Positions 22,468-38,732 of a stretch of DNA of 41,929 nucleotides are shown here, in pieces (the stretch's first letter is position 1; every line of letters starts with the position of its first letter). This stretch comes from a virus. The stretch spans positions 1-41,929 of the IMG/VR virus record IMGVR_UViG_3300020377_000012, one strand, 5' to 3'. The notes under the pieces were generated by a model. It had not been told where the DNA came from, ran no database searches, and saw only the letters and a list, made by a program, of their open reading frames with translations. The position numbers were made by a program, and so were the translations under genes.

Positions 22468-24264
22468 ATGGCATTCTTTATACCCGCTTTGATGGGAGCA
22501 GCAAGATTTGGAGGAATGGCTCTAGCTAGAACTGCTGGGGTTGCAAAATCTGGATTAAGAGCGGCGGGTTCTTTGGGTAAAGGTGCGCTTGGATTTGGTG
22601 CTGGAGCAGCTTTGGCAGGAGGCGGTCAAGGTATGCAAACTGCCGTACCTTCCTCTAATGAATCAATGGACAATGTTATTCCGTTTCCAACATCTGCTGG
22701 TGGTGGAAATAGAGGCGGAGGTTCAGGCGGAGTATCGACAGCTCAAGCTACTTCCGCGTTACAGGATGGAGATTCTTCAAACCCCACAGTTAATGCTTTA
22801 AATGAAATAAGAGAAGTCTTAGTAAGTATAAAGGGTGATACCGCTACTATAGCAACTGGATTCGCCGCCCCTAAAGCAGAGTCACCAGACGAAAATAAAT
22901 TAAATGCAATGTTTGGTGGAAAGGGTGGTGGTAGGTCATTACCAGTAGGTAGTGCTGGATTAGGAACTGCTGTCGGTGGTCTTGCTGCTCTGGGTGCTAT
23001 GGGTATGTTTGATACTGAAACATCTGAAAAAAGAGCCAAAGAAGTTCAAACGAAACTTGAAGATGGCACAGATAATTTCATAACAAAAATAACACAATCA
23101 CTAGTAACACAAGGTAATAAATTAATTGCCGCTCAGACTTTAGGACAAGGTGCAAAATCTGCCGTCAAAGCTGGAGCAGGAATGATTGCAAGTGGAGTTA
23201 AAAAAGTTACAACCCCTTCACTTGATAAAGCTGGGACGCCCTCGATAGACAGTTCTAAGGTAGTTGGTACTACACCAGATGGCAAAAATGTAGTGCAATC
23301 ACAAAAAGGTAATTTTACTGTACAAGGCGCGGATGGTAAACCAACCACGAATATGGTAAAACCAGAAAATGTGAAACCACTAAAAGTTAAAATTGATGGG
23401 CCAACCAAAGCAAAAACAAGCGCATTGGCCAAAACTGGTGATTTAGCAGCTTCATTGATGAAAAATATTGGTAAGTATGGTATTAAACAAGTACCCTTAG
23501 TGGGTGCAGTTGCTGGTCTTGGAATGGCAGCACATCGATTATTCAAAGGAGATTCGGCAGGGGCAGCTGCGGAACTGGCTGGTGTCGCGTTAGTTGGGCC
23601 GTTAGGTGGTGTATCAATAGATGCTGGTCTTCTTGCTAGAGATATGTACAATGATGTTTATGGTGACCCAGATAGTGATGATGCATCACTTAAATTTCCA
23701 CATGATAGTGATGTATTGAGTCCAATAGAAACTAATTACTTTGAAAAGTATGGAGCTATAATTGATTATGTGAAAGGCAAACTTAAAGAAATGAAAGATA
23801 ATCTTGGTAAAGGTGAATTGGAAAAACCAACATCTGCAAGACCAACAGAAAAAGGATTTTTTCAGACTGATAAAGGATTGGCTGCCGAACAAAAACGATG
23901 GGACGAAAAATTTGGTGCAACTCACAATGAGGATGGAAGTCTAAAAGTTCCGTCACCAGAAATGCAAATGCAAGCGGCAGAATCTACTACCCCAACAGAT
24001 TTAATTGGAGACTCCGCTCCAGCAGAAACAGAAAGTGGTTCTATAACAATAGATTCAGCATCCAATCAAGTAGCAAACGCTCAAGCATCTGCAAGTGAAG
24101 AAAAGGCAATGCAAGTTGCAGCTATACAAAGTGATGCAATGCAATCATTACAACAAGTAGTTGGTGGTCTTGGTGGAAAAGTAGAATACTTGCCTGTCCT
24201 AGTAACAGATAAGACAGTTGTAGATACTGAAGTTAATAAACTTATGGTTCAAAAGAACAATTAA
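22468..24264 (+). CDS. Putative tape measure / hub protein, gp29-like
   Basis: A 598-residue protein, nearly the length of T4 gp29 (590 aa), the tape measure. The first 60 residues are Ala/Gly-rich and hydrophobic (MAFFIPALMGAARFGGMALA). A Gly/Ser-rich linker follows, and a second hydrophobic region occurs near 340-395 (GIKQVPLVGAVAGLGMAAHR). The rest is low-complexity, Lys/Asp/Ser/Thr-rich and helical. This composition and the position directly after the assembly pair fit a tape measure. At the usual 1.5 angstrom per residue it would specify a tail of about 90 nm. I see no direct alignment to gp29, so the call rests on context, length and composition. The ATG has GGAGA 9 bases upstream. Its end overlaps the convergent radical SAM gene by 23 bases. 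Confidence 0.68.
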   Translation: MAFFIPALMGAARFGGMALARTAGVAKSGLRAAGSLGKGALGFGAGAALAGGGQGMQTAVPSSNESMDNVIPFPTSAGGGNRGGGSGGVSTAQATSALQDGDSSNPTVNALNEIREVLVSIKGDTATIATGFAAPKAESPDENKLNAMFGGKGGGRSLPVGSAGLGTAVGGLAALGAMGMFDTETSEKRAKEVQTKLEDGTDNFITKITQSLVTQGNKLIAAQTLGQGAKSAVKAGAGMIASGVKKVTTPSLDKAGTPSIDSSKVVGTTPDGKNVVQSQKGNFTVQGADGKPTTNMVKPENVKPLKVKIDGPTKAKTSALAKTGDLAASLMKNIGKYGIKQVPLVGAVAGLGMAAHRLFKGDSAGAAAELAGVALVGPLGGVSIDAGLLARDMYNDVYGDPDSDDASLKFPHDSDVLSPIETNYFEKYGAIIDYVKGKLKEMKDNLGKGELEKPTSARPTEKGFFQTDKGLAAEQKRWDEKFGATHNEDGSLKVPSPEMQMQAAESTTPTDLIGDSAPAETESGSITIDSASNQVANAQASASEEKAMQVAAIQSDAMQSLQQVVGGLGGKVEYLPVLVTDKTVVDTEVNKLMVQKNN

Positions 24265-25771
24265 GTTTTTTCTGAATATATCCATCAACATGGTCTAGAA
24301 TAAAACTTTCTCTTCTTTCCATGTGAGTTTGTGTCTGAAAATCATTCCAAGTTACACTAGGGTCAATGAAAAACTTATCATACATGAATGGGTCTAATAC
24401 ATTTTTTAGTTTTGCTTTACTAAACTCTTCCACGCAAAATTTAAAACACTCATACATGCTAGAGTAGTCATTTTCCCACATAATGTACTCGCCAGAGGTC
24501 GCCACATAGTCGTAGAGGACTTTATAGAACGGATTGATACTCATATCCCACTTTATATCATCTTCGGGGAATTTACCCTCTCTATATCCATATTCTTTCC
24601 AATTTAAATCAAATTCTGAACTATGATTGAGAGATGGTTTACCTAGTAACTTAATCATCAATATATTCATATGATAACTCTGGTCTGCCCAGTATTCAGA
24701 ACACCATTTTACTGTATCGCGTAGACTATCAATGGTTTCGTATGGAAGTCCAGATATTAATGATATATGACCTTTGTAGAATCCAGCATTTTTCTGAAAG
24801 TATTCTTTTACTTCTAATAGTCCGTCCTGTATCCTACCAGTATTCATTCCCTTACCAACAGATTTAGCTGCCTTGTGGTTCATACTTTCAATACCATAGA
24901 AGTGAGATGTAATTCCCATCTTAATTAGGTTATCCCAATCTTTAGGACGCGAAGCTATTAAATCACCACGGATATACGCGGTCATCTTTGGTTGAAATGG
25001 AAGTTTTTCTATTACATTAGCAAACTTCTCAATCTTCTGTGGACTGTCATTGAATGTTTCATCTAGGACAATATAATGTTCTGTTCCCCACTTATCATAA
25101 TTCTCTAACATCTCATCATAGACGCTTTCTGCTGTACGAGAGTAATCACCCTTGACGCCTAGTATCGGGAAACTACAGAACTTACATTTGAACTTACATC
25201 CACGAGCAAACTCCAAAAGAAGTATTTCCCTTGGGTTCATAAAATCTGTTTCTTGGTAAGATACTGTTAAATCTTCTTTCGGAAATGATTTGTAATTTAC
25301 ATAACAGTTAATTACTTTATTGAAGTGTATCGGTTCTGGCCCACCATCGAAATGTTTCATCAATTCCAACATGGCGTTTTCACCGTAACCATAGACATAC
25401 CAATCCATGTCCAGACTACGCATACTATCATTTTGACTACCAGCAACACGCGGTATATTTGGATATTCTTGTTTTAACCATTCAACCAGTTCTTTAACAA
25501 CTGGACTATCTAAAAAGAATGTAGAACCAAATCCAAAGAACTTACACTTTTCTGCTCTAGGTTTTAAATATTTTTTAAGTTGTTCTATTTTCCATCTGTG
25601 GACATAATCTATTACATCTATATTATAACCGTTCTGCCTCAAAAAAGTGGCAATCTTGTGTCCGCCTGAACTTCTTCTTATTGAGATGTTTTTTGAATCT
25701 TCTTTATGAATTGACCCAGCAAAGTCTTCTAGTTGTCCACCAAATATAATTCCATCCATAATTTTCGCCAT
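24242..25771 (-). CDS. B12-binding-type radical SAM enzyme
   Basis: A 509-residue enzyme. Residues 1-160 look like a Rossmann-type B12-binding domain (SSGGHKIATFLRQNGYNIDV, ending WYVYGYGENAMLELM). A radical SAM core follows with the iron-sulfur motif in LEFARGCKFKCKFCSFP (C-x3-C-x2-C) near residue 195, then MTAYIRGDLI and FYGIESMNHKA. Such two-domain enzymes do methylations, ring formations or methylthiolations. The substrate is unknown. It is the only non-core gene between the tail operon and gp32. Its ATG comes directly after the T-run of the gene 32 terminator, with no ribosome site; an alternative ATG lies four codons in. A late promoter in the terminator loop probably drives it. Confidence 0.82.
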   Translation of the reverse strand: MAKIMDGIIFGGQLEDFAGSIHKEDSKNISIRRSSGGHKIATFLRQNGYNIDVIDYVHRWKIEQLKKYLKPRAEKCKFFGFGSTFFLDSPVVKELVEWLKQEYPNIPRVAGSQNDSMRSLDMDWYVYGYGENAMLELMKHFDGGPEPIHFNKVINCYVNYKSFPKEDLTVSYQETDFMNPREILLLEFARGCKFKCKFCSFPILGVKGDYSRTAESVYDEMLENYDKWGTEHYIVLDETFNDSPQKIEKFANVIEKLPFQPKMTAYIRGDLIASRPKDWDNLIKMGITSHFYGIESMNHKAAKSVGKGMNTGRIQDGLLEVKEYFQKNAGFYKGHISLISGLPYETIDSLRDTVKWCSEYWADQSYHMNILMIKLLGKPSLNHSSEFDLNWKEYGYREGKFPEDDIKWDMSINPFYKVLYDYVATSGEYIMWENDYSSMYECFKFCVEEFSKAKLKNVLDPFMYDKFFIDPSVTWNDFQTQTHMERRESFILDHVDGYIQKKLNCSFEP

Positions 25772-26942: not shown

Positions 26943-26950
26943 TATTTATA
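26943..26950 (-). promoter_or_regulatory. Possible late promoter TATAAATA at the end of gp59
   Basis: Exact octamer on the minus strand, overlapping the gp59 TAA stop. The GGAG ribosome site of the next gene lies immediately after it, so a start 5-7 bases downstream would leave that site out of the message. It may be a chance match or a weak promoter that adds late gp32 supply. Confidence 0.35.
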
Positions 26951-27524
26951 CAGGTTGAGTAAGTGTTTTGGCGACTTCCTTCATTGAGTCGGTCACCTTT
27001 ATGAAAGGACGATATTTTTTAACCAGCAGTACAACATCTTCTAGTAAAACATCATCCGTTTCTTCTACAAAATCGAAAATCTTATCTAATATAACAAGAG
27101 TTTCAATTTCGATCATTCTACCAAAGTACAGACGAAAAGTCAAGCCCTGTTTTCCATTTTTTTCAAAAAAAGCGCCAACTTTTTGTTTTTCCATCTCTAG
27201 TAGTATCTTTGAGACATCCCTTTGAAAGAGATATTCTCTCTGATTCTTTTTTGCCTTCCAATCTTCGTATCTCTTGGATGCTTGTATATCAAACAATCCA
27301 CCCCATCGTTCTCCAGATACAAAATTTGCGACTAAAAAATCTATTATTTCCTCGCGTTTATAATCCCTAGCAAGTTTCTTTATAGATACCATGTCTTTCC
27401 GTTTACGAAAAGTCTCTGGTTTTACTCTAACTTTACCCTTATACTTCACTACATCATATGACTTGGTAGTAAAATGAAGTTTAATAGCTAGGTACAGTTT
27501 ATAAACTTCATAGGGTTCAATCAT
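26946..27524 (-). CDS. 59: Replicative helicase loader gp59
   Basis: A 192-residue protein (T4 gp59: 217 aa). The N-terminus EPYEVYKLYLAIKLHFTTKS, then YDVVKYKGKVRV, matches T4 SVYKLYLMIKQH...KYDVIKYNWCMRV, and the helical pattern continues (IIDFLVANFVSGERWGGLFD, like T4 ALIFISNLVANQDAW). It loads the gp41 helicase onto gp32-covered fork DNA. It starts four bases into the end of gp33 (ATGA overlap) and lies upstream of gp32, repeating the T4 order 33-59-32 with one extra small gene. Basic residues near the start (KGKVRVKPETFRKRKDMVSI) fit DNA binding. Confidence 0.92.
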   Translation of the reverse strand: MIEPYEVYKLYLAIKLHFTTKSYDVVKYKGKVRVKPETFRKRKDMVSIKKLARDYKREEIIDFLVANFVSGERWGGLFDIQASKRYEDWKAKKNQREYLFQRDVSKILLEMEKQKVGAFFEKNGKQGLTFRLYFGRMIEIETLVILDKIFDFVEETDDVLLEDVVLLVKKYRPFIKVTDSMKEVAKTLTQPV

Positions 27525-27811
27525 ATGGGTAACTTACAAGACTTCTGTCCCTTAACTAAGTTAAGACCAATTGCTTCTGCTTTGATTTTTTCTTTAAGCG
27601 ATGCTGTAAGTAATTTTTTAACACTTTCTATTTCTATATCATTCCTGCCACAGTATTCTACTAAAACATCGATATAATTACCAGCAGAAACAGCTTTTCT
27701 TTCTATGTGTTGAGAGAACTCAGCGGATGTATGAAATTCTTTCGTAACCATGAATACATCGCTAACCTTCTCTTCTTTTTCTGTGTCATTGTCCACTATC
27801 AATTTTGGCAT
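27521..27811 (-). CDS. 33: Late transcription co-activator gp33
   Basis: A small protein (96 residues from the ATG at 27811; T4 gp33 is 112). Recognisable parts are FSQHIERKAVSAGNYIDVLV, EYCGRNDIEIESVKKLL, SLKEKIKAEAIGLNLVK and the final CKLPI, matching the T4 pattern of a conserved helix, IEKM-like segment, SGIIEKIQSEAIDENLL and a hydrophobic C-terminal tail that binds the sliding clamp. With gp55 it lets the host polymerase use TATAAATA promoters. I prefer the inner ATG (GGAACGA upstream) to the one five codons earlier, which is only two bases after a GAGG. Its start lies inside the 3' end of the epimerase gene. Confidence 0.88.
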   Translation of the reverse strand: MPKLIVDNDTEKEEKVSDVFMVTKEFHTSAEFSQHIERKAVSAGNYIDVLVEYCGRNDIEIESVKKLLTASLKEKIKAEAIGLNLVKGQKSCKLPI

Positions 27812-28709
27812 ATTTTCGTTCCACATTCCTCAAATCCTTGTTTACATTTCTTAAAATCCGTTCTTCCTCATAATCACTTTTCCATTTCTTAACATAACTA
27901 ATAACATTATATTCTGTTTCAATATATGGATTTTCACATTCGGTTACTTCTGCCTCACCCTTCTTGTCAAATTCATAAACAATAGGGTGGTCAAATGCCT
28001 TTGCTAGTTCCGATATACTAACTGGATTCCCAGAACCAAGATGTACATTTTTTGGTTTACTTTTTGTTGTTAATAACTTCAGTATACCATCTATTACATC
28101 ATGGATATGAGTAAAGTCCCTTTCTTTTTTACCACTACCAAATACCCTTAGAGGTTTGTTTTCCTCTACGCATTTTTTAAATGCTCGGATTACAGTACTA
28201 TGTTCTCCATAGTCTGCTTCTCTTGGCCCATACACATTATAAAAATATAACAAGTGGTATTCCAAGTTGTATTGTTTGCGATAAAGTTCTAGTAACTCCT
28301 CATTTATACACTTTGAAAATGTATAAGGATTGTCATGATGGTGAAGAAACTGAGTACTTGAAGAAGCAGCGAAAAACAAGGGTATTCGTTCTCTTCGTGC
28401 ATACTCAGCAACGACCATTGTTGAATTAAAGTTATTCGTAATAGTCCCAAATGGGTCATTCTGAGATAACCTAATTCTAGGCGTGGCGGCTAGATGAAAT
28501 ATTGCGTCATACTTTCCAACTGGAATTGCTGATGCAACATCTTTATGTAGATACTTCACATTTGGGTTATCTTCGACTTTGAAGTTGCCTTTCCTCATAT
28601 CATCAATAACAAGAACATTCTGCCCATGTAAAAGCAATGCTTCTGTTAGGTGTCCACCAATAAATCCGCATCCACCTGTGACGATAAAATTATGAACTTT
28701 CTCAGTCAT
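27786..28709 (-). CDS. NAD-dependent sugar-nucleotide epimerase/dehydratase
   Basis: A 307-residue extended short-chain dehydrogenase. The NAD site is TGGCGFIG at 11-18, with D36-D37 after the second strand. The catalytic set is S117/S118, Y129 and K133 (NPYTFSK). The C-terminal substrate part has YNVYGPREADYGEHSTVIRA and RDFTHIHDVIDGIL, typical of UDP-glucose 4-epimerase and GDP-sugar relatives. It would make or convert a nucleotide sugar in the host cytoplasm. It sits apart from the sugar cluster at 31249-41929, between the hydrolase and gp33, and overlaps both neighbours. The exact sugar cannot be read from the sequence. Confidence 0.9.
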   Translation of the reverse strand: MTEKVHNFIVTGGCGFIGGHLTEALLLHGQNVLVIDDMRKGNFKVEDNPNVKYLHKDVASAIPVGKYDAIFHLAATPRIRLSQNDPFGTITNNFNSTMVVAEYARRERIPLFFAASSSTQFLHHHDNPYTFSKCINEELLELYRKQYNLEYHLLYFYNVYGPREADYGEHSTVIRAFKKCVEENKPLRVFGSGKKERDFTHIHDVIDGILKLLTTKSKPKNVHLGSGNPVSISELAKAFDHPIVYEFDKKGEAEVTECENPYIETEYNVISYVKKWKSDYEEERILRNVNKDLRNVERKYAKIDSGQ

Positions 28710-29250
28710 TGTATACCGTGTAAAAAATGTGACTATCTATTTTTGTTGTCATAGCCATATGTTGTGCCCATGCTGGTTCCACATAATCCGCGTGATAAAA
28801 CAAACTACCATTTGTATTATCTTCGTATCTACTAACCATTACATCAATTGCCAATTCTATGATTTCTTCATATGAAGTAAAATCTCGTACCATGTCTGGC
28901 TTACCGTCACAGTACCAACTAAATTGACAACCATGTCTGATTGGAACCAACTCATTTTCATCTCTCCAAGACGGTCTGTGTTTGCCTTGATAAACAACAC
29001 CACAGATTGTGTCTGGATATGCATTGTGTTTAACACGATTAAGGGTAACGAAAGCAACTGCAATTTTACCTTGAGAGCTTTCGCCCCTAGCTTCGTGATA
29101 AATGTTAATTGCGAGACAAGCAATTTCTTTTTGGTCTATAACCTTAACTGGGTCATAGACATGAATTTCCTTGTCGTAATAGTTATCAGCACTAGCGGGC
29201 CACAATATAAGAGACACCGCTACAAAGGCTGTTAAAAACCAAGTGTACAT
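28702..29250 (-). CDS. SleB-like cell-wall hydrolase with signal peptide
   Basis: A 182-residue protein of the Hydrolase_2 (SleB/CwlJ) family. A signal peptide covers about residues 1-21 (hydrophobic VAVSLILW, then PASA before the likely cut). The catalytic region is INIYHEARGESSQGKIAVAF with E53, followed by VTLNRVKHN, TICGVVYQ and CQFSWYCDGKPD, all typical of the family. It would cut peptidoglycan from the periplasmic side, as an endolysin for lysis or during infection. The phage's gp5 has no lysozyme domain, so this may be its main murein hydrolase. The 36-aa membrane protein upstream could help its release; that is inference. It overlaps the epimerase by 8 bases. Confidence 0.88.
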   Translation of the reverse strand: MYTWFLTAFVAVSLILWPASADNYYDKEIHVYDPVKVIDQKEIACLAINIYHEARGESSQGKIAVAFVTLNRVKHNAYPDTICGVVYQGKHRPSWRDENELVPIRHGCQFSWYCDGKPDMVRDFTSYEEIIELAIDVMVSRYEDNTNGSLFYHADYVEPAWAQHMAMTTKIDSHIFYTVYND

Positions 29251-29261
29251 AGTGTACTAGA

Positions 29262-29372
29262 TTAGAATGGTAACTTGTCAAATACTGTGTCAAGAAAATC
29301 CAACCAACCTTTTCGGTCTTTAATCCATGCTCCAATTACTATCCCAATAACGAGTCCTGTAATTAACCACAT
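29262..29372 (-). CDS. 36-residue single-pass membrane miniprotein
   Basis: The frame MWLITGLVIGIVIGAWIKDR and on to DKLPF has a perfect GGAGGAG site 8 bases before the ATG. Residues 2-16 form a short hydrophobic helix with GxxxG-like spacing, followed by a charged, soluble tail. It begins about 30 bases after the tmRNA hairpin and ends 11 bases before the hydrolase ATG. Position next to a secreted murein hydrolase suggests a holin- or pinholin-like helper, or a small regulator of the hydrolase. It is too short for family assignment. Confidence 0.7.
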   Translation of the reverse strand: MWLITGLVIGIVIGAWIKDRKGWLDFLDTVFDKLPF

Positions 29373-29405
29373 ATCTTTCTCCTCCTTCTCTTTGAGAATT
29401 TGTTA

Positions 29406-29434
29406 GGACAGTATTCTGGTGCTAGGAACTGTCC
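29406..29434 (-). other. Hairpin at the 3' end of the tmRNA region
   Basis: GGACAGT and ACTGTCC form a perfect 7-bp stem around a 15-base loop, about 17 bases after the tag stop. No T-run follows, so it is not a classic terminator. It may be a structural element or processing site at the end of the coding piece, or protect the 5' end of the miniprotein message. Confidence 0.6.
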
Positions 29435-29450
29435 GAAACCCCGAGCGATT

Positions 29451-29495
29451 CTACGCCGCTAAAGCGTAGTCCTCATAAGCAGTATTATTTTCTGC
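29451..29495 (-). other. tmRNA tag reading frame, AENNTAYEDYALAA-stop
   Basis: The resume codon is probably GCA at 29495, giving 14 residues ending ALAA and a TAG stop. The hydrophobic ALAA end matches the tag ends of E. coli-like and many proteobacterial tmRNAs, recognised by ClpXP and ClpAP. This frame is why a longer meaningless protein frame spans the RNA. The exact resume codon cannot be fixed by reading alone. Confidence 0.85.
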
Positions 29496-29604
29496 ATTTA
29501 TGGTTTTGTTGCACTTACGGCAGCTTCCTCTCCGAACTCTCCACGCACCTATTAAGTTCCAGTCGATCCTGTTCGCCCCCTTAGTCGGGTCTATAAGAAT
29601 TGAT

Positions 29605-29665
29605 TGGTGGAGGCGGGGGGAATCGCACCCCCGTCCTGTAAACCTTTCGACTTGTTTCATCGAGT
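29605..29665 (-). ncRNA. ssrA: tmRNA acceptor piece
   Basis: About 60 bases ending in the encoded CCA at 29605. It holds the P2 strand, the T-arm (29632-29616) and the 3' strand of the acceptor stem (29615-29609). The 5' end near 29665 is inferred from the promoter. After removal of the 24 bases at 29604-29581 it should stay joined to the coding piece only by base pairing. Confidence 0.82.
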
Positions 29666-29670
29666 TAAGT

Positions 29671-29678
29671 TATTTATA
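29671..29678 (-). promoter_or_regulatory. Late octamer TATAAATA overlapping the tmRNA promoter
   Basis: TATAAATA on the minus strand shares bases with the TATTAT -10 hexamer of the bacterial-type promoter just upstream. Together they could keep the tmRNA made early (host sigma factor) and late (gp55/gp33). Start would fall near 29665. Confidence 0.5.
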
Positions 29679-29704
29679 ATACTACAAGATAGGCCAAAAG
29701 TCAA
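29676..29704 (-). promoter_or_regulatory. Sigma-70-type promoter for the tmRNA (TTGACT, 17 bp, TATTAT)
   Basis: The -35 hexamer TTGACT (29704-29699) overlaps the stop of the nuclease gene; the spacer is 17 bases; the -10 is TATTAT (29681-29676). Five of six bases match consensus in each hexamer. The expected start is close to 29668, just before the acceptor piece. Confidence 0.75.
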
Positions 29705-30360
29705 GCGTTATTTTCGTACAAATCTCGACACTCTAGCAAATACTCCGTGTAATTGTCACGATGTTCTACGAATAATTGTGGTTCTTCGTTCGCTACACCA
29801 ATGATAATTACTGATTTTGTGATAGGTATTCCTGTTCTTTCTTCAAACATAATCGCGTAACCAGCACATTGAGCAAAATAGTTCTTTATATATGACTTGG
29901 TTTTAGGTTTAGCAGAGGTCTTAAAGTCAATAATAGACAATTGTCCCTCAAACTCAGCGATACAATCCGCCTGGCCAGCGAGTCTTAGGTGGTCGCTGTA
30001 CAAAAATTGTTCAATCGCGTGTATGTTATCTATCTTATCAAGGTAAAGGCGCATGTTATCGAACATGTCTTCCTCTACAAAAGACAACATTTCAGTATCA
30101 AGTTCCTTATTATTAAGATAATCCTCGCAAACACCATGAATTTTGGTTCCTCGAACAGACGATTGACGCGATATTTTGTTCGCTGCCTGTTCTCCTACCT
30201 TTTTTCTCCATGCTTTTATGGCTGGTTTTATCTTATATCCAAGAACGGTGGTGATAGAGGGATATCTATCACCGCTTTCCGTTACATATGTCCGTTTTCC
30301 TTCAAAATTCTCCCTCATCAACTGAGGGAAATCGTGTTTTTTGTCAATATGTGTAAACAT
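29701..30360 (-). CDS. PD-(D/E)XK nuclease, RecB/Cas4-like
   Basis: A 219-residue nuclease. The motif order of the RecB-like exonuclease branch is visible: RGTKIHGVCEDYL with H75, E117 in IEQFLYSDHLRL, D132 in LAGQADCIAEF, then D145-F-K147 in LSIIDFKTSA, and a QCAGYAIMFEE motif with Q164-x-x-x-Y168. There is no cysteine cluster of the Cas4 type. Such genes are common in marine T4-like phages and probably serve recombination or host DNA breakdown. It follows a perfect-consensus promoter (30388-30416), suggesting early expression; AGGA lies 11 bases before the ATG. Confidence 0.85.
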   Translation of the reverse strand: MFTHIDKKHDFPQLMRENFEGKRTYVTESGDRYPSITTVLGYKIKPAIKAWRKKVGEQAANKISRQSSVRGTKIHGVCEDYLNNKELDTEMLSFVEEDMFDNMRLYLDKIDNIHAIEQFLYSDHLRLAGQADCIAEFEGQLSIIDFKTSAKPKTKSYIKNYFAQCAGYAIMFEERTGIPITKSVIIIGVANEEPQLFVEHRDNYTEYLLECRDLYENNA

Positions 30361-30387: not shown

Positions 30388-30416
30388 ATTATACTAGCCT
30401 TTAGAGCAAATGTCAA
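30388..30416 (-). promoter_or_regulatory. Perfect consensus sigma-70 promoter TTGACA, 17 bp, TATAAT
   Basis: Both hexamers match consensus exactly on the minus strand (30416-30411 and 30393-30388) with the ideal 17-base spacing. It lies between PhoH and the nuclease gene. Expected start near 30381, about 20 bases before the nuclease ATG. A strong early promoter of this kind is characteristic of T4-like phages. Confidence 0.9.
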
Positions 30417-31248: not shown

Positions 31249-31545
31249 TTAGTTATAAAGCGCTGAAAGTGGCAGAACCTCAGCAGATTGAATGATTCTG
31301 CGAATCTGTTTTTTGCATGGTTCTGATATTATTTGATTATCCAGACAATCGGACATTTTTTCAATGACGAATTCTGGTTCTAATGTGCGAAGATCTTGGC
31401 GTACCCATTTCTTTGGGTCATCCAAATCATCGGTTAGATTAAGACATAAAAGGACGATATAGATATCCTCTTCTGTGTATAGATTTATTCTGTATCCTGT
31501 TGGTTCCCATTTATGCTTCTTCGGGAACTTCAGTATATTACTCAT
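31249..31545 (-). CDS. Small unknown protein at the end of the accessory operon
   Basis: A 98-residue protein, MSNILKFPKKHKWEPTGYRI onward, that I do not recognise. The segment EDIYIVLLCLNLTDDLDDPK is hydrophobic then acidic; there are three cysteines and no signal peptide or clear membrane helix. Its ATG overlaps the upstream stop (ATGA). It is the last gene of the gapless leftward operon; a 74-base gap follows before PhoH. No function is proposed. Confidence 0.72.
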   Translation of the reverse strand: MSNILKFPKKHKWEPTGYRINLYTEEDIYIVLLCLNLTDDLDDPKKWVRQDLRTLEPEFVIEKMSDCLDNQIISEPCKKQIRRIIQSAEVLPLSALYN

Positions 31546-32417
31546 GTTAATAACTTTTCACCAACCTTTGTACCGTATAACTTATGACTTTCGGCACAAG
31601 GATGGCCCCTTGGTAATCTCTCTATGATGTTAGCACCCAGAGGGTCTAACTTTGTTCCTTCTATAATATACTTATCTATTTCAGATTCTAGAAATTTGAT
31701 TTGAGATGCAAATTGTGGTGTATCAAAGTCCATTTCATATTGTTTTTTATACCATTCTATGTTAAATACATCTAACATTGGTATAATATAGAACTTTATG
31801 TCGTTAATTTTACAGAGATTGATGATACTGTAGATTTCATGGAGAAAATGCCAAAACAGAGTATATACTCCCTTTAGACGCATATACTTTTTAGCAAAGT
31901 CTGGGTCACCCCTTCTTTCAAAGTCAGTAGCAACTACAAGACTCCTCGCGGAACCATATTTTCCCAAAGTATTATTTGTATTATCTTCATATTCTGTAAA
32001 TATCATTTCTCTGGCAAACCCAGTAAGACCAATTACAATCGCCTCTTTGTTTTTATCTATCTCATATTCTTCTCCCATGATATGTGATAGTATTTTAGCT
32101 TTCATATAGGTCATCGATGCTCCGTGGGCTCCATGATTATAAGACCTAACTCTCAAAAGATTGCACATGTGTTGTGCCCACGATAACTGATTTTCTAATT
32201 TCATTTTTTTCTTAAAAAGAAGTTCTCGTGACAATTTTCTTTTGTAATATCCCTCTACGGTTTCTCCCTTCTGTCTTTTCATTTCCTTTACTGGAATACG
32301 CATGGGGTCAGGCATTTCTTTATCCATAAGTTCTTGCCCAGCAACATAGGAACACCCATAAAAGTGAAGTCCATCTACCTTTATGGTTTCACCGTTGTGG
32401 TACTTTATCTCACGCAC
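31542..32417 (-). CDS. SGNH-like protein A (GCSYVAG motif)
   Basis: A 291-residue protein. It begins with a beta strand and the turn FYGCSYVAGQEL, the block I pattern of SGNH/GDSL hydrolases with Ser in GCS. It ends with RGHPCAESHKLYGTKVGEKL, where a His could be the block V His; a central segment EAIVIGLTGFAREM can be the Gly block. The same architecture occurs in protein B (33801-34610) with GCSHTAG and HAGNHYYTETQ. The two lie on either side of the carbamoyltransferase. Such proteins can be sugar O-acetyl esterases or acyltransferases. That is inference, since the remaining catalytic residues are not certain. Confidence 0.7.
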   Translation of the reverse strand: MREIKYHNGETIKVDGLHFYGCSYVAGQELMDKEMPDPMRIPVKEMKRQKGETVEGYYKRKLSRELLFKKKMKLENQLSWAQHMCNLLRVRSYNHGAHGASMTYMKAKILSHIMGEEYEIDKNKEAIVIGLTGFAREMIFTEYEDNTNNTLGKYGSARSLVVATDFERRGDPDFAKKYMRLKGVYTLFWHFLHEIYSIINLCKINDIKFYIIPMLDVFNIEWYKKQYEMDFDTPQFASQIKFLESEIDKYIIEGTKLDPLGANIIERLPRGHPCAESHKLYGTKVGEKLLT

Positions 32418-33820
32418 ACTTTAACTCCATACTTCTTCTCAAATCTAGCTGCATCTTTTTCATCATTTACTATTGGTTCGCCTTTGATGTTCAAACTAGT
32501 ATTTAGTAAGATAGGGTGACCACTATGTGTTTTCCATCTTCTTAACAACTGAGATAATCCGCTGTGTTGTTCGTCATTGACAGTCTGAACTCTACTGGTT
32601 CCATCTTTGTGTACTATGGCAGGAAATAGTTCTGGTTCTTTGCATCTAACTACATGTTGCATATATGGTGATTTAAATCCTTCTGGTACATCAAAATACT
32701 TGTGTACCTCTGATTCTAATATAACTGGTGCAAAGGGTCTAAACTCTTGTCTCTTCTTAATCTTATTAACAACATCTTTCATCTCTGAACCTTTTGGGTC
32801 TGCAAGTAAACTTCTATTACCCAAAGCTCTAGGCCCAAACTCTGCCCTACCATTTGCAACACCAACTATTTTCAATGCGACAAGATTTGCCAGTAGGTCA
32901 TTCGTTGGATATGTGCCTTCTATATTGTATCCAAGATAAGGCGTTTTCCAATTTAATTTTATATGTTCTCTAGCTGCAATCGCACCAATGGAAGAACCAG
33001 CATCGCCTGGATTGGGCATAATCCAATGATTAGAAAAATATTCTGGAATAAGTCTATTTGCCAAACAATTTAAGGCACACCCACCCATGAAAACCAAATT
33101 GGTTTCATCTGTCAATCTTGCAGCTGTAAACAATAACTTTCTAAACTCCCATTCGTAGATTTTTTGTGTAGCAGCTGCGACATCAAAATAATCCTCTTCT
33201 TTTAAATCTGGGTTCCACCACTTACATCCTCTATGTAAGTTTTCTTTTAGTAATCGTTTAATATCACGATGAAATCTACTTGGGTCACCATAAGCAGCCA
33301 TACCCATAAGAATATACTCATCTTCATTTGCCTTCAGTCCAATTCTATCTGTCATCGCGGAATAGAACAATCCCAATGAGTCTGGATACCTAGAAGTCCA
33401 AATACACTCCATATCCTTCCATATAGATGTGGTAGTCCACTCTCCAATAGCATCAATAACTAATATAGCAGAACTTTTAAATGGTGAAGTGTAATATCCA
33501 GCAGCTGCATGTGATTTGTGGTGAGTAGTATAGTGTGGTGATTTAATTCCAAAATGTTTTAAATATTTTTTAGGACTCACCCACGGTCTTTGTTGTTTAG
33601 CGTATTTTTTCCTTGTCCATTTTAACCAAGGATTTTCATACCAATAAACATGGTCTGGTTCTCCATATTTTTTTGCCTCCATGATAATTTCTGGATTAAG
33701 AAATGCATCATTTTTTATACCACTAAATCTCTCACTATGAGAGGCAAACAATATCTCATCATCTCTAACAACCGCTAAAGAAGCGTCATGTGTACAAGCA
33801 CTAATTCCCCAACTTATCAT
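32405..33820 (-). CDS. NodU/CmcH-type carbamoyltransferase
   Basis: A 471-residue enzyme that transfers a carbamoyl group from carbamoyl phosphate to a sugar or other hydroxyl via a carbamoyl-adenylate. The N-terminal domain begins with WGISACTHDASLAVVRDDEI, has the metal-binding THHKSHAAAGYYTSPF and SAILVIDAIGEWTT, and MGGCALNC. The C-terminal domain has GVANGRAEFGPRALGNRSLL, KKRQEFRPFAPVILE and ILLNTSLNIKGEPIV. Known members carbamoylate Nod factors, cephalosporins and other metabolites. It is somewhat shorter than typical NodU (about 560 aa). It overlaps both flanking SGNH-like genes (13 and 20 bases), so all three are co-translated. Confidence 0.9.
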   Translation of the reverse strand: MISWGISACTHDASLAVVRDDEILFASHSERFSGIKNDAFLNPEIIMEAKKYGEPDHVYWYENPWLKWTRKKYAKQQRPWVSPKKYLKHFGIKSPHYTTHHKSHAAAGYYTSPFKSSAILVIDAIGEWTTTSIWKDMECIWTSRYPDSLGLFYSAMTDRIGLKANEDEYILMGMAAYGDPSRFHRDIKRLLKENLHRGCKWWNPDLKEEDYFDVAAATQKIYEWEFRKLLFTAARLTDETNLVFMGGCALNCLANRLIPEYFSNHWIMPNPGDAGSSIGAIAAREHIKLNWKTPYLGYNIEGTYPTNDLLANLVALKIVGVANGRAEFGPRALGNRSLLADPKGSEMKDVVNKIKKRQEFRPFAPVILESEVHKYFDVPEGFKSPYMQHVVRCKEPELFPAIVHKDGTSRVQTVNDEQHSGLSQLLRRWKTHSGHPILLNTSLNIKGEPIVNDEKDAARFEKKYGVKVCVR

Positions 33821-34610
33821 TTAAATGTTCCGCTATTTCTTTCTGTGTCTCTGTGTAGTAATGATTACCAGCGTGTCTAGGATTAGGAGTAAACTCATCG
33901 TTTGTTGGTATCGCATTTTCTCCAATCCATTGCCAATATTTGTTAAAAACCTCTTTTCTGCGTGTACCGTCTGTTTCCAATGTATCTGGATTGTCTGCCT
34001 TAGTTTCTAACTGCAATCTCCATGACGGTGCTTCTATGAAAAAATATTTAACTCCTAATAATTTCATATGTCTCAATAAGTGATAATAGTTCCAAGATAT
34101 ATTCCAATAGTTTCCCCACTCATATGGAGCAACGGTTTTGTGCATACTGTCAAACTGTAGTTCTAACCATCTATAGGGATGAGGCACCTGTAAAATTATT
34201 TCATCTTTTGTAATATCAATGGAACCGTCCATGATATCCTCTTCCAATGAATACAAACAAAGTTCTAATGAACCACCACCAAAAGCACGATTCATATAAT
34301 GTGTATGACCGCGAAGTTCTGCTAGATACCTTACCCATGTTAAAGACCTACATATATCCTCGCCACTTTCTAAATGCGATATTTCTTTTAAAGAAACACT
34401 ACGAAAGATGTTACCAAATTTAGAATATGGGTCAACTTCATGTCCGTATAGTTTCCAAATCTTTTTCCAAGCTTGCGGTAGTGTATCACCACCAGAGATA
34501 TACTTAGATTTTAATTTATTAACAGTTTCTATGTCTGTCCCCAACATTATGTGGTCAGCTAATTCTGCACCAGCTGTGTGGGAACATCCATATGCTACAA
34601 GTCTAGTCAT
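33801..34610 (-). CDS. SGNH-like protein B (GCSHTAG motif)
   Basis: A 269-residue protein starting MTRLVAYGCSHTAGAELADH, with Ser in the block I position. A loop AFGGGSLELCLYSLEEDI can act as the Gly/Asn blocks, and EIILQVPHPYRWLELQ is a central strand. It ends with NPRHAGNHYYTETQKEIAEHL, where His follows Asn in the usual D/N-x-x-H region. The protein is enriched in Trp and Tyr in its middle (EWGNYWNISWNYYHLLRH), compatible with sugar binding. Similarity to protein A is confined to the first and last blocks. A role in esterification or de-esterification of the surface product is likely but unproven. Confidence 0.72.
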   Translation of the reverse strand: MTRLVAYGCSHTAGAELADHIMLGTDIETVNKLKSKYISGGDTLPQAWKKIWKLYGHEVDPYSKFGNIFRSVSLKEISHLESGEDICRSLTWVRYLAELRGHTHYMNRAFGGGSLELCLYSLEEDIMDGSIDITKDEIILQVPHPYRWLELQFDSMHKTVAPYEWGNYWNISWNYYHLLRHMKLLGVKYFFIEAPSWRLQLETKADNPDTLETDGTRRKEVFNKYWQWIGENAIPTNDEFTPNPRHAGNHYYTETQKEIAEHLNDKLGN

Positions 34611-34827
34611 AGATGAAAGGGTCTCGTTCTCGCATCTTTTTCATTTTCTTTTCTAGTTCTTCTTGTTTTTCTTTTTCTTTTTGTTCTATCTCATCAAGTT
34701 TCTTGTTCAAGGACTTATCAAGAGAGTCGGTCTTCTCCGAGACCTCCAACAACACCTTCCTGATCACTTTGGTTAATCTCCCAGCTTTCATGAATTTGTG
34801 TAGTTTCTTTTTTGTTCGTTGTTTCAT
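34603..34827 (-). CDS. Short coiled-coil protein overlapping the dehydrogenase gene
   Basis: From the ATG at 34827 (GGAGATACGAGAA upstream) it encodes 74 residues, MKQRTKKKLHKFMKAGRLTK onward, ending MRERDPFIYD. The part around NKKLDEIEQKEKEKQEELEK is a long amphipathic Lys/Glu helix, so a coiled coil. A frame nine codons longer is possible. It overlaps the last 110 bases of the dehydrogenase gene in another frame and touches SGNH-like protein B by 8 bases. The overlap plus its ribosome site argue that it is real; function unknown, possibly a scaffold. Confidence 0.65.
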   Translation of the reverse strand: MKQRTKKKLHKFMKAGRLTKVIRKVLLEVSEKTDSLDKSLNKKLDEIEQKEKEKQEELEKKMKKMRERDPFIYD

Positions 34828-35956
34828 TTCTCGTATCTCCGTAGTGTACAACATTTATTCCCACATGACTTCTCCAAGGGTCAAACACAACTCCCTCATA
34901 ATCGGTAGGTATCAAATCCGACTCGTGTACCTTTACGATGACATGTGGGTTTTCATCTACAGGTACAATAAATCCATATCTTTTTACATAGTGTTGGACT
35001 AATAGACTGTAACTACCGTTTGTATATGGAACATCTGGTTTATATGAATCAGATGTAAATGCAATTTTATTTCCGTGTTTTAAAATTGCCATTGCCATAT
35101 TATCTGCTTGTATGTCTCGTGCCTTCATTATTTCAGCAAACAAGTCATACCCTAAATTTAAATCTTGTGCCATGTATCTAAGTGCAATATTGTCTCTTGG
35201 ATGACACGCGCCACCATCACCCATACCAGCTTTCATGTAACTAGGCCCCATGATTCTCTGAGTACTTTTTTTCAATGCATTTGTTACTACATCAACATTA
35301 ATATTACCCTGTCTTTCTGCAACATCCTGTATCATGTTTACAAGACCAATTTTTGCGCTAATGAAGGTATTATAAAACACCTTAATACATTCACACTCAT
35401 CCCAAGTACCAACTTCATAACGCGGTTCGTTTTCCATTATCTCATTATAGAAGTGTATGAGACTATGTGCTTCCATAGACTCTTCTCCATTCTCTGTTCC
35501 TATCATTACCATCTCTGGATTTACCATATCCCACGCGACTGTACCCATGGCAATCAAATATGGATTATAAACAAATTTAGGATTGGTTATAAGAGGCACT
35601 ACTTCTTTTCTTACGGTGCCTGGCAATACCGTACTGATAAGAACCAATATCTGTTTCTTTGTCATATGTTTATTTGCTTCAGCGATTACTTCTTTTACGG
35701 TATCATAATTAAAGTCTTTTGGTGGCAAATGGTATGTAGGTTCTGAACCATCATAAAGTGGGTCATGCGGTGTGGGTACTGCAACAAATACAAATACTCT
35801 ATCTTTTACAACTTCTTCTATTGTATCTTTAACATTACAATATTCGCTTTCTACTTCGCGTGTATCATAAACACTAACATCGTGTCCTTTTTGTGCAATA
35901 ACTTCAGCACATGGTTTACCTAATTTACCAAATCCAATAAATGCAACATTGGTCAT
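34718..35956 (-). CDS. UDP-glucose/GDP-mannose dehydrogenase family
   Basis: A 412-residue NAD-dependent nucleotide-sugar dehydrogenase. The NAD loop is GFGKLG at 8-13. STVLPGT (109-115) and AKIGLVNMIQDVAERQG are family motifs. The catalytic cysteine is C251 in GDGGACHPRDNIAL, the GGxCxPxD motif with R for the usual variable residue. The C-terminal NAD/sugar domain continues to NVVHYGDTRN, and the last 30 residues are a polar tail that overlaps the coiled-coil gene. It would oxidise a nucleotide sugar to its uronic acid. Substrate is unknown. It supplies precursors to the glycosyltransferase-like proteins upstream in the operon. Confidence 0.88.
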   Translation of the reverse strand: MTNVAFIGFGKLGKPCAEVIAQKGHDVSVYDTREVESEYCNVKDTIEEVVKDRVFVFVAVPTPHDPLYDGSEPTYHLPPKDFNYDTVKEVIAEANKHMTKKQILVLISTVLPGTVRKEVVPLITNPKFVYNPYLIAMGTVAWDMVNPEMVMIGTENGEESMEAHSLIHFYNEIMENEPRYEVGTWDECECIKVFYNTFISAKIGLVNMIQDVAERQGNINVDVVTNALKKSTQRIMGPSYMKAGMGDGGACHPRDNIALRYMAQDLNLGYDLFAEIMKARDIQADNMAMAILKHGNKIAFTSDSYKPDVPYTNGSYSLLVQHYVKRYGFIVPVDENPHVIVKVHESDLIPTDYEGVVFDPWRSHVGINVVHYGDTRNETTNKKETTQIHESWEINQSDQEGVVGGLGEDRLS

Positions 35957-36996
35957 AACTTACTAATCTCCATAATATTATTGTAGTTTTCATTAATTAC
36001 CTCTAAGACTCTTTTTCTATTGTACATGAGTCTATCTTCTAGTTTTGCGTATAGATTGTTTAATTCATCCAATCCGTAATTCAATTGGAACTGGGTCATA
36101 TCTTTTAAAGCATTCTCTATTCGCCAGTATTTATCGGGTTCATCAAGATGAATATTTGGAAACAAGTCTTCAAAAGTATCAAATTTCCATTCTTTTAATT
36201 TTTTATATAGATATCTATCACCTATAATAATAAATGGTCTAAGTCCTATCAAGGGTTTAAAGGTTTTTTCACTTAAAAACACATCAGTATGCATAACGCT
36301 TTCTGTAACAACCGTACAAAAGTGTTTGTTCCAATACTGTGGTTCACCTAAAGATATAATATCATTTGCTAAGTGTGTATCACTTAATTTTTCCCAATCA
36401 TAAGCCTTTTCCATTATATGTGGTGGTCTGTTTTCCTTTAATATAATAGGATTTTCAAATATATAATCTTCATGTGGTTTTACAGCAGAAACTATAGTAT
36501 CTTTAAAATGTCCCATAGTAAATAAATTATTTAAAAAATGAATCCTGTGGTCATGTGGTTGGTGATTCAAAGTCATAAAGTGTTTCTGTATGTTCGGCAT
36601 CTCAGTATAACATTCATCAAAGAAAGTGTCAAGGTGATTATGAATAAAAGATAACCAAAAACTAAAATAATGACCTTTTCTACTGTTTCCTATATTGATA
36701 ACCTCCCACCGTTCATTTAAAAATTTATGTGCCTCCACACATTCTGGCACACAATCAGTACTTTCCCAATCCATACCAGAGTACACCAAAATTCTTGGTG
36801 TTTCACCAGCTTTAAATTGACTCGCGTTGAACCATTGCTTTAATTGCGCTACATTATCACCAACTGACCACCATGTAGAATTTATCAGAATACAATCATC
36901 TGGTTTTAGTTGTTTTAGTTCACTAACAAACTTTCTTTCAAATTCTGTTATATGTTGACTGCCGCTTTTTATGTCTGCGCCTTTACTCCAATACAT
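35953..36996 (-). CDS. Glycosyltransferase-like protein with SEKTFKP motif (short)
   Basis: A 347-residue protein of unknown family. Its C-terminal half contains VFLSEKTFKPLIGLRPFIII, then GDRYLYKKLKEWKFDTFEDL. The next gene upstream has LFLSEKIFKPIAYRHPFMVV and RHLRYLGYETFPEMF in the same place. This E-K-x-F-K-P pattern resembles the nucleotide-sugar part of GT-B enzymes such as fucosyltransferases (EKLFKAL). I call it glycosyltransferase-like on that basis only. The N-terminal part (NSTWWSVGDNVAQLKQWFNA) has no match I know. It overlaps its neighbours by 4 bases and 1 base. Confidence 0.65.
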   Translation of the reverse strand: MYWSKGADIKSGSQHITEFERKFVSELKQLKPDDCILINSTWWSVGDNVAQLKQWFNASQFKAGETPRILVYSGMDWESTDCVPECVEAHKFLNERWEVINIGNSRKGHYFSFWLSFIHNHLDTFFDECYTEMPNIQKHFMTLNHQPHDHRIHFLNNLFTMGHFKDTIVSAVKPHEDYIFENPIILKENRPPHIMEKAYDWEKLSDTHLANDIISLGEPQYWNKHFCTVVTESVMHTDVFLSEKTFKPLIGLRPFIIIGDRYLYKKLKEWKFDTFEDLFPNIHLDEPDKYWRIENALKDMTQFQLNYGLDELNNLYAKLEDRLMYNRKRVLEVINENYNNIMEISKL

Positions 36997-38732
36997 TAAT
37001 TAATCTCAACTCCATGTGAAGACAACTGACTCAATATACCAACCGTGTGTTTTTCAAAGTCTGGTCTAGAGTTTTTAAATACCTCAAAATTATGTTTTAG
37101 TTTATCTCTAACTGAATTATATTTGTGAACTTTTTCATCATGAGTTAACTGTTTCCATTGTTCAAGATTTTTAACTAAAATACTAAATCGTTTTTTAGCA
37201 TCATATTCTTGGTCATAACTTTCATCAAACATTTCTGGAAAAGTCTCATAACCAAGATACCTAAGATGTCTTAATGTTCCCATACTACCAACAACCATAA
37301 AAGGATGTCTATAAGCAATGGGTTTAAATATTTTTTCTGATAAGAACAGAGCGTCTGGGTCATCGTGGAAAAGTGTTTCTGAAACAAAACTAAAAAAAGA
37401 ATCTTTATACATCTCAGATGTTATCAATCTATCATCAGCATCAACATCATTTGTGCTTGCGTCTGCAATAACCCTGTCTCTATCTTTCCAGAACTTATAA
37501 ACATTTTCTATCTGTACATCATAAGAAAAGAAAGAAACATAACTATTTTCTTTCCTAGCAGTAAAAGCAGTTATATCACGACCATTATACATTTGTTTTT
37601 TCCATTCCGTTTGTGGAGCGCCTGTACTATCTTCATCAATAATGGCATCCCTAGCTAGGAAACTAATATAAGAATTATCATTATTATACCCTAGTCTATG
37701 CAACTCCGCAACTAACCCAGGCCTATGAGACCTTGGTCTCGCGTTCAAACATATTAAGTCTTTTTTCTTGTCTCCGCCAGTAGGTACACCTACAAGAACT
37801 TCATCTGGTTTACATCTTTCAAATGAATCCCTAATAACTTGATTGGGCGCTGTATCCAGTAGAGTAGAATCAAAATCCTCATATGGTATTACAACATGGT
37901 CAGTAAATCCACCAGTTAAATCTGAAGCGCCATAATGATTCTGGTGCATGTATTTTGGATTCTGTAATCTATGTACATACACGCCAGTTCGTTCTGAATA
38001 TTCTTTCCAATAATCACAATGGAAATAATCGTAAGATATTACCTTTGTAAACTCAAAGGTTGTTTTATCCATACCGTGTCTGGTTCTTAACCATCGGTCA
38101 TAATTATGTTTTGCCTGCAAATCACCAAAAACAAAATAACATATAGTTTCTTCTAGTTGATGAGCTCTCATTTGCATATGAAAATGATGTAACCATCCTT
38201 CAGCATGGAACCCTTGATAATAATTCATACCTTCATGCGGAAACCATAATACCATGGCTAAATGTCTGTGTCGTAAGTGATGAACTATCTGTTGAGGAAT
38301 AGCATTGAGAGCGGTTATCCACTCTTGACTGAATATAAACTGGGGTTCTAAGAAGTAAAGATTGTTTGTATTTTTATGAATACCATTTGGGTCAAAGTCA
38401 CCCACATCAACCAACTCGTAAGGCCAGTCAACGCTTTGATAATGTCCAATGACAGATGTAATGTAATTAAAAACACCGTGAGCTTCTGGTGAACCAGAAC
38501 CATTAGCTAGAGGCCAAGACATGCAGTCTTCGTGGTCTACCTTTAGTCTTTTCCTATCAAAGATAAGGTAATGTGTTTCTTTGGGAGTGCTTTTTCTAAC
38601 TAAGTATTTTTGCAATACGCTAGTGTTGATTCTTTTTAAGTCTGCTAATTCACTTCTAAGACCAATTACTTCATTAACTAATCTGTCCAAAGTACTGTTT
38701 AGGGTTCCAAGGTTCTCGTCCGATTCCGCCAT
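36996..38732 (-). CDS. Glycosyltransferase-like protein with SEKIFKP motif (long, coiled-coil start)
   Basis: A 578-residue protein, starting at the ATG at 38732 with AGGA upstream. Residues 9-50 form a coiled coil (LVNEVIGLRSELADLKRINT), suited to oligomerisation. The rest is rich in His, Tyr, Trp and Asp. Near residue 470 come LFLSEKIFKPIAYRHPFMVV and LRYLGYETFPEMFDESYD, shared with the shorter neighbour. A region with VLVGVPTGGDKKKDLICLNA and RPRSHRPGLVAELHRLGYNN (about 310-345) looks like a GT-B nucleotide pocket. It is the largest gene of the operon. The first 59 bases are inside the end of the upstream radical SAM gene. Function is inferred from motif and context. Confidence 0.68.
   Translation of the reverse strand: MAESDENLGTLNSTLDRLVNEVIGLRSELADLKRINTSVLQKYLVRKSTPKETHYLIFDRKRLKVDHEDCMSWPLANGSGSPEAHGVFNYITSVIGHYQSVDWPYELVDVGDFDPNGIHKNTNNLYFLEPQFIFSQEWITALNAIPQQIVHHLRHRHLAMVLWFPHEGMNYYQGFHAEGWLHHFHMQMRAHQLEETICYFVFGDLQAKHNYDRWLRTRHGMDKTTFEFTKVISYDYFHCDYWKEYSERTGVYVHRLQNPKYMHQNHYGASDLTGGFTDHVVIPYEDFDSTLLDTAPNQVIRDSFERCKPDEVLVGVPTGGDKKKDLICLNARPRSHRPGLVAELHRLGYNNDNSYISFLARDAIIDEDSTGAPQTEWKKQMYNGRDITAFTARKENSYVSFFSYDVQIENVYKFWKDRDRVIADASTNDVDADDRLITSEMYKDSFFSFVSETLFHDDPDALFLSEKIFKPIAYRHPFMVVGSMGTLRHLRYLGYETFPEMFDESYDQEYDAKKRFSILVKNLEQWKQLTHDEKVHKYNSVRDKLKHNFEVFKNSRPDFEKHTVGILSQLSSHGVEIN

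Follow-up and report, generated by a model that had tools for sequence, protein, structure and literature searches.

The window analysed here, a virus contig of 41,929 bases, carries a complete circularly permuted tmRNA gene on its minus strand at about 29666-29405, detected by both ARAGORN and Rfam. ARAGORN reports a single permuted tmRNA in the window, at 29360-29700 (-), with the tag AENNTAYEDYALAA followed by a stop. The Rfam model RF04321 (tmRNA_permuted) matches over its full length at 29666-29451 (-), scoring 117.1 bits with an E-value of 2.3e-22. RF01849 (alpha_tmRNA) also matches over its full length, at 29708-29405 (-), with 93.8 bits and an E-value of 2.1e-24. The curated covariance-model cut-offs of both permuted-tmRNA families are exceeded (gathering scores of 47 for RF04321 and 50 for RF01849). 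We consider it highly probable that this is a functional phage ssrA of the permuted alphaproteobacterial type, that it has been passed down inside a marine T4-like myophage clade to which Melnitz and HTVC008M are related, and that it acts by the rescue mechanism proposed below. The case for a tmRNA lies in the covariance models and in conservation, not in folding energy. The minimum free energy of the tmRNA strand alone is unremarkable (z -1.4), and whole-strand folding energy was dropped as uninformative. A chance match is ruled out by ARAGORN, the Rfam models and conservation.

The gene is laid out with the acceptor piece (29605..29666, minus strand) ahead of the coding piece (29406..29580, minus strand). 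The acceptor piece, identified by ARAGORN, by Rfam and by P2 and T-stem covariation in 35 distinct phage sequences, opens with the P2 strand AACTC (29666-29662). It continues through the T arm (about 29632-29616) and the acceptor 3' strand CGCCTCC (29615-29609), and ends with A73 and an encoded CCA (29608-29605). An intervening segment of 24 nt (29581..29604, minus strand), which holds no ORF, is presumably removed on maturation. The coding piece begins with the acceptor 5' strand GGGGGCG (29580-29574), followed by AACAGGATCGAC, the mRNA-like part and a 3'-terminal hairpin, GGACAGT/ACTGTCC (29434-29406). Its exact 3' end is an estimate from the RF01849 match, which runs to 29405, and from the hairpin. 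The tag frame, AENNTAYEDYALAA and a stop, occupies 29451..29495 (-), as found by ARAGORN and by direct inspection. The acceptor stem, likewise inspected directly, carries the alanine identity pair G3-U70 in addition to A73.

A preliminary description of this DNA had proposed a phage-encoded, two-piece permuted tmRNA. In that proposal the acceptor part with an encoded CCA precedes the tag part across a 24-base gap, a seven-base GGGGGCG/CGCCTCC stem pairs across the permutation, a sequence element follows, and the tag frame ends in ALAA-stop. Each of these parts is present, on the minus strand, which the description had not named. The permuted-tmRNA covariance model, run over the locus, gives the significant RF04321 match, and the predicted ends, 29580 and 29605, coincide with those proposed earlier.

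The gene is conserved. The relatives compared are metagenomic contigs, and all those with an exonuclease 72-100% identical to that of the window (L128-L155, L014 and L048) carry the tmRNA, as detected by ARAGORN or else by Rfam. ARAGORN gave no result for five of them (L130, L131, L141, L142 and L143); reading this as gene absence was wrong, since Rfam detects the tmRNA in all. Across 35 distinct phage sequences the T stem is 100% paired, compared with 75.6% in shuffles, a figure that, like that of the acceptor stem, is partly biased because pairing there was demanded at extraction (at least 4 of 5 T-stem pairs). The outer part of P2 is 77% paired, against 61% in shuffles, and two-sided changes occur in 5 of its 5 pairs. 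G3-U70 is invariant in the same alignment. The 3'-terminal hairpin is supported among the stems evaluated, which were nested stems only.

To judge from its substitution pattern, the tag frame is under purifying selection. Change among nine close variants is mostly synonymous (pN/pS 0.36), and the ratio is 0.35 over 84 distinct 14-aa phage tags. A1 and the final two A are invariant in 84 of these 84 tags, and the mRNA-like part is retained in every copy examined. These results bear on the possibility that the phage RNA is a decoy or inhibitor which, once charged or SmpB-bound, mainly titrates host SmpB, displaces the host tmRNA and blocks host rescue. The tRNA-like-only tmRNA of mycobacteriophage DS6A does inhibit tmRNA (PMC4131195; PMC11915505). 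A search of five related virus records, including one of 137 kb and one of 161 kb, found no SmpB, which fits such a role and also means that host SmpB would be required. A decoy needs no tag frame, however, whereas the one here is selected and LAA-ended and sits in an mRNA-like part that no examined copy has lost. The conserved tag thus argues against a pure decoy, which we judge very improbable.

The same tags bear on whether the phage gains something beyond added rescue capacity, namely a tag that changes what becomes of the proteins bearing it, for instance through evasion of the host SspB adaptor. In E. coli, SspB is contacted by the N-terminal part of the tag. Tags in the window's small clade open A-E (AENN, AEDN or AEED, that is, A-E-N/D/E at positions 1-3), whereas 75 of the 84 distinct phage tags open A-N and most open A-N-D-N. 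This A-E opening might change adaptor recognition. Against retagging, the LAA end and the purifying selection are the ordinary pattern, and the difference is limited to one small clade. We think retagging unlikely, though it keeps some plausibility, and favour ordinary ribosome rescue.

The neighbouring genes are T4-like (baseplate, tail, head closure, DNA end protector, gp32, gp59, gp33, PhoH and exonuclease). Upstream lies a PDDEXK-type exonuclease gene (phrog_298; 29701..30360, minus strand), whose stop abuts the tmRNA region and which is the same neighbour in relatives and in Melnitz. The conserved downstream flank includes the genes for the late-transcription coactivator gp33 (27521-27826, minus strand) and the helicase loader gp59 (26946-27524, minus strand). 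The order exonuclease, tmRNA and then, further on, gp33, gp59 and gp32 is common to the window, Melnitz and many IMG/VR contigs.

Two other parts of the window drew attention. Directly after the tmRNA, a 36-aa ORF, MWLITGLVIGIVIGAWIKDRKGWLDFLDTVFDKLPF (29263-29370, minus strand), has an AGGAGG Shine-Dalgarno sequence and a membrane-like N terminus. A PF07486 cell wall hydrolase gene comes next (28702-29250, minus strand), and the two may form a lysis pair transcribed together with the tmRNA. Farther away, 31249-41855 (-) and 24242-25771 (-) hold radical SAM, carbamoyltransferase, UDP-glucose dehydrogenase-like and several large unassigned genes, a run that looks like a phage sugar or surface-modification cluster.

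The tmRNA is preceded by a composite promoter (29671..29704, minus strand) that is phase-locked in relatives. Its -35 box, TTGACT (29704-29699), is separated by 17 nt from a -10 box, TATTAT (29681-29676), which overlaps an element of the T4 late consensus, TATAAATA (29678-29671). Transcription is predicted to start at the P2 5' strand, roughly where the mature acceptor piece begins. Within the window TATTATAAATA occurs 3 times against 0.12 expected, and TATAAATA alone 10 times against 5.2 expected. The bare TATAAATA motif is therefore weak by itself, and the comparative evidence is the strong part. Both promoter elements are kept in 18 of 18 distinct close relatives, including the L132 group, in which the -10 box and the late element have shifted with respect to one another. 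The late-type element is found, at a fixed distance from CCA, in 166 of 213 distinct phage tmRNA upstream regions, where 10.9 would be expected; it is missing in the other 47, and none of 51 alphaproteobacterial genes has it at that position. A TTGAC box lies upstream at fixed spacing in 98 of 165 phage regions (2.4 expected), and two exact spacings, TTGACN-N17-TATAAATA and TTGACN-N17-TATTATAAATA, cover almost all of these cases.

By its motif this is a T4-type late promoter, with the element at the start site and gp33 encoded by the phage. Late use is read from the motif, since the ATAAATA late element doubles as a sigma-70 -10 box. The gene had been credited beforehand with its own promoter and with residence in a T4-like phage. 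The promoter proves to be TTGACT-N17-TATTAT overlapping TATAAATA, in an arrangement kept in relatives, and the gp32, gp59, gp33, baseplate, head-closure and DNA end protector genes bear out the phage type. ARAGORN, the two Rfam models, the T4-like neighbours and the conserved promoter all concur on a phage-encoded permuted tmRNA. A perfect sigma-70-type promoter, TTGACA-N17-TATAAT (30388..30416, minus strand), also stands in the short gap between PhoH and exonuclease, upstream of the latter. Read-through from it could provide an extra early tmRNA transcript.

Lineage was assessed with a tree built from 35 phage and 51 bacterial tmRNAs. Of the phage sequences, 32, among them the window, Melnitz and HTVC008M, form a clade with no bacterial member (support 0.916); the deeper branching is untrustworthy because the alignable stretch is short. 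What the tree shows is limited to the absence of a recent donor among the sampled alphaproteobacteria. Grouping apart from the sampled alphaproteobacteria marks the phage copies as phage-owned, and recent host capture was rejected because none of the sampled bacteria falls in the phage clade. The suggestion in the preliminary description that a host origin could be traced thus holds as far as the alphaproteobacterial type and fails beyond it, the phage copies forming their own clade with no recent donor in the sample. A shared string, AGGATCGACTGG, with matches mostly in Methylobacterium, was considered as a sign of a host link and judged convergent, because the placeable copies sit on the bacterial side of the tree. 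No named phage was found near the window at the DNA level. Distant blastn matches in Caulobacter, Streptomyces, Pseudomonas and one Moorella phage were set aside, as they cover only the conserved T-arm/acceptor stretch.

A captured host relic has points in its favour. ssrA is a common integration site and prophage exchange has been discussed (PMC9004378), so a host ssrA could have been gained by transduction or integration and now be decaying or neutral. Such a relic is already contradicted by a gene that is complete, has covarying stems and an open tag, and is present in every close relative found. A phage-specific promoter, a fixed place inside the replication/transcription block and a phage clade of its own speak against it too. 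Given the conserved stems and promoter, we lend the relic reading almost no credence.

For the functional phage ssrA that we prefer, we infer the following course from transcription to tagging. RNA synthesis would be driven by the composite promoter, located at the acceptor piece's 5' end. Host sigma-70 RNA polymerase would use it in the early or middle phase, and the phage T4-type late apparatus, of which gp33 is encoded in the window, in the late phase. Host RNase P would cut at 29581/29580 and 3' processing would leave CCA at 29605, removing the 24-nt spacer. Pairing in the acceptor stem and in P2 would then join the two pieces, and the tmRNA would be charged by host AlaRS through G3-U70. 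With host SmpB and EF-Tu, the charged RNA would rescue ribosomes stalled on broken mRNA and append AENNTAYEDYALAA, whose LAA end should be recognised by host ClpXP. Two-piece processing and the alanine and SmpB steps are established in bacterial homologues (PMC11915505). The benefit is likely to be ribosome recovery in late infection, while host and phage mRNAs are cut.

A further feature of the phage genes is the spacer between the two pieces. Spacers are 12-186 nt long in phages, which were not chosen by spacer length, compared with 5-48 nt in the extracted bacterial sample, which excludes 27 unextracted loci; a few bacterial matches are long, so long bacterial spacers exist. The window has the short, ORF-less form. 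In L048, L139 and L140, the spacer measures 120 nt (L048:4058-4177 in the first) and is exactly taken up by a Shine-Dalgarno sequence plus the ORF MVNGAGKWMLRMYILWSIIADITLVSGIIYLVFF, which stops a single base short of the coding piece. Even so, L048 and L139 match the window at 95-97% identity in their acceptor and coding pieces, so the spacer behaves as a swappable cassette. In several relatives an inverted repeat brackets the spacer and extends the acceptor stem (L077, z -5.5).

The spacer ORFs fall into homologous families. A 34-aa membrane-like ORF, MV..AGKW..RMYILWSIIAD.TLVSGIIYLVFF, is the one seen in L048, L139 and L140 and has an in-frame pN/pS of 0.24, with variants in L145, L146 and L147. 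A 39-aa ORF, MWIYKC..GTYTEDSF..LLYVIF.HRFSHLLKGEGFRD, is represented by nine distinct copies in spacers of 145-146 nt (L347, L396, L342, L359, L375, L442, L444, L412 and L382), and its in-frame pN/pS is 0.24 against 1.0-1.1 in shifted frames. Proteins of a third family end in HRLHTTKYEDLCK/M or in KYLSG/KYLGK (L077:8600-8785, L002, which is Melnitz, at 11078-11219, and L524-L603). This widespread family is also encoded outside tmRNA genes, by free-standing small genes in contigs of marine phages, and 24 of its 80 best IMG/VR matches lie inside tmRNA spacers. Among named phages it is found inside the Melnitz ssrA only, where the spacer protein contains MFKWLSKTRLVVITRDYF and the frame continues into the coding piece. 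Spacer-protein family A has no match in named phages, and comparison of the spacer proteins with Pfam and PHROG gave no convincing family match.

In five spacer-ORF groups the in-frame pN/pS is 0.22-0.28, against 0.36-1.7 in shifted frames. Codon by codon, then, the small spacer proteins of several relatives appear to be under purifying selection. The shuffle test on a mixed set gave only a twofold excess (35 versus 17.6), and it is their homologous families and the selection at codon level, not that excess, that make the case for the spacer ORFs. We lean towards viewing the permuted tmRNA gene as a phage-owned transcription cassette. In such a cassette the composite early/late promoter would initiate at the 5' end of the mature RNA, the spacer would serve as a coding compartment, and the tRNA-maturation cuts in the relatives would also release a small mRNA; the window would represent the ORF-less form. 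As contents of tmRNA spacers, the 2025 paper on the tmRNA database names a tRNA gene and a repeat, and not protein genes (PMC11915505). Provisionally, coding spacers are new relative to the freely accessible literature searched. Protein-coding spacers within a structural RNA gene would be an unusual gene arrangement.

The tmRNA itself is not of a new kind, and the novelty implied by the preliminary description was set too high. Marine T4-like phages have been known since a 2022 publication to carry permuted two-piece tmRNA, which was described for the Methylophilales OM43 phage Melnitz and at the same locus. That work reports permuted two-piece tmRNAs in Melnitz and Mosig and counts 53 phage tmRNAs of the two-piece form (PMC9004378), and the current tmRNA database holds 79 phage tmRNAs (PMC11915505). 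The Melnitz gene (MZ577097 gene 86), which is annotated in its record, is likewise a permuted alpha-type two-piece tmRNA of a marine T4-like myophage and lies, as in the window, between the PDDEXK exonuclease and gp33. Its promoter, TTGACA-N17-TATAAATA, is of the same type as that of the window. The two differ in tag (ANDNYVPVDYALAA in Melnitz, AENNTAYEDYALAA in the window) and in spacer, 142 nt with an ORF in Melnitz and 24 nt in the window. A glutamine riboswitch has been reported in the 3' domain of the Melnitz ssrA (PMC9004378), whereas in the window Rfam finds no riboswitch family above its gathering score, glnA and Downstream-peptide RNA included. The Melnitz ssrA was placed under an early promoter, and expression in the early phase alone was inferred for it (PMC9004378); the conserved late-type element argues against early-only action of such tmRNAs.

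HTVC008M, a Pelagibacter (SAR11) phage (NC_020484), also has a permuted tmRNA between exonuclease and gp33. It differs in its tag, ANFNEYALAA, in a 49-nt spacer with an inverted repeat, and in having no TATAAATA at the position occupied elsewhere. This tmRNA (L471:4121-4462, about 145120-145461) has no annotation in RefSeq, where a CDS listed as hypothetical covers some of its 5' part. Alphaproteobacterial two-piece tmRNAs (RF01849 / RF04321) share the gene order, acceptor stem, encoded CCA, AGGATCGAC and ALAA tag end. They differ in lacking the late-type promoter element (0 of 51), in standing apart in the tree and in their 5-48 nt spacers, against 12-186 nt in phages. One-piece tmRNAs such as those of mycobacteriophage Bxz1 and Bacillus phage G (PMC4131195) are also phage-borne, but belong to other phage groups and are not described there as permuted. 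What the present analysis adds to these known systems, as far as found, is a composite promoter, a clade of phages only at one fixed locus, and spacers that code for protein. Viruses of abundant ocean bacteria keep a ribosome-rescue RNA of their own as a lineage, at one locus and with a phage-type promoter, and not as a sporadic borrowing from the host.
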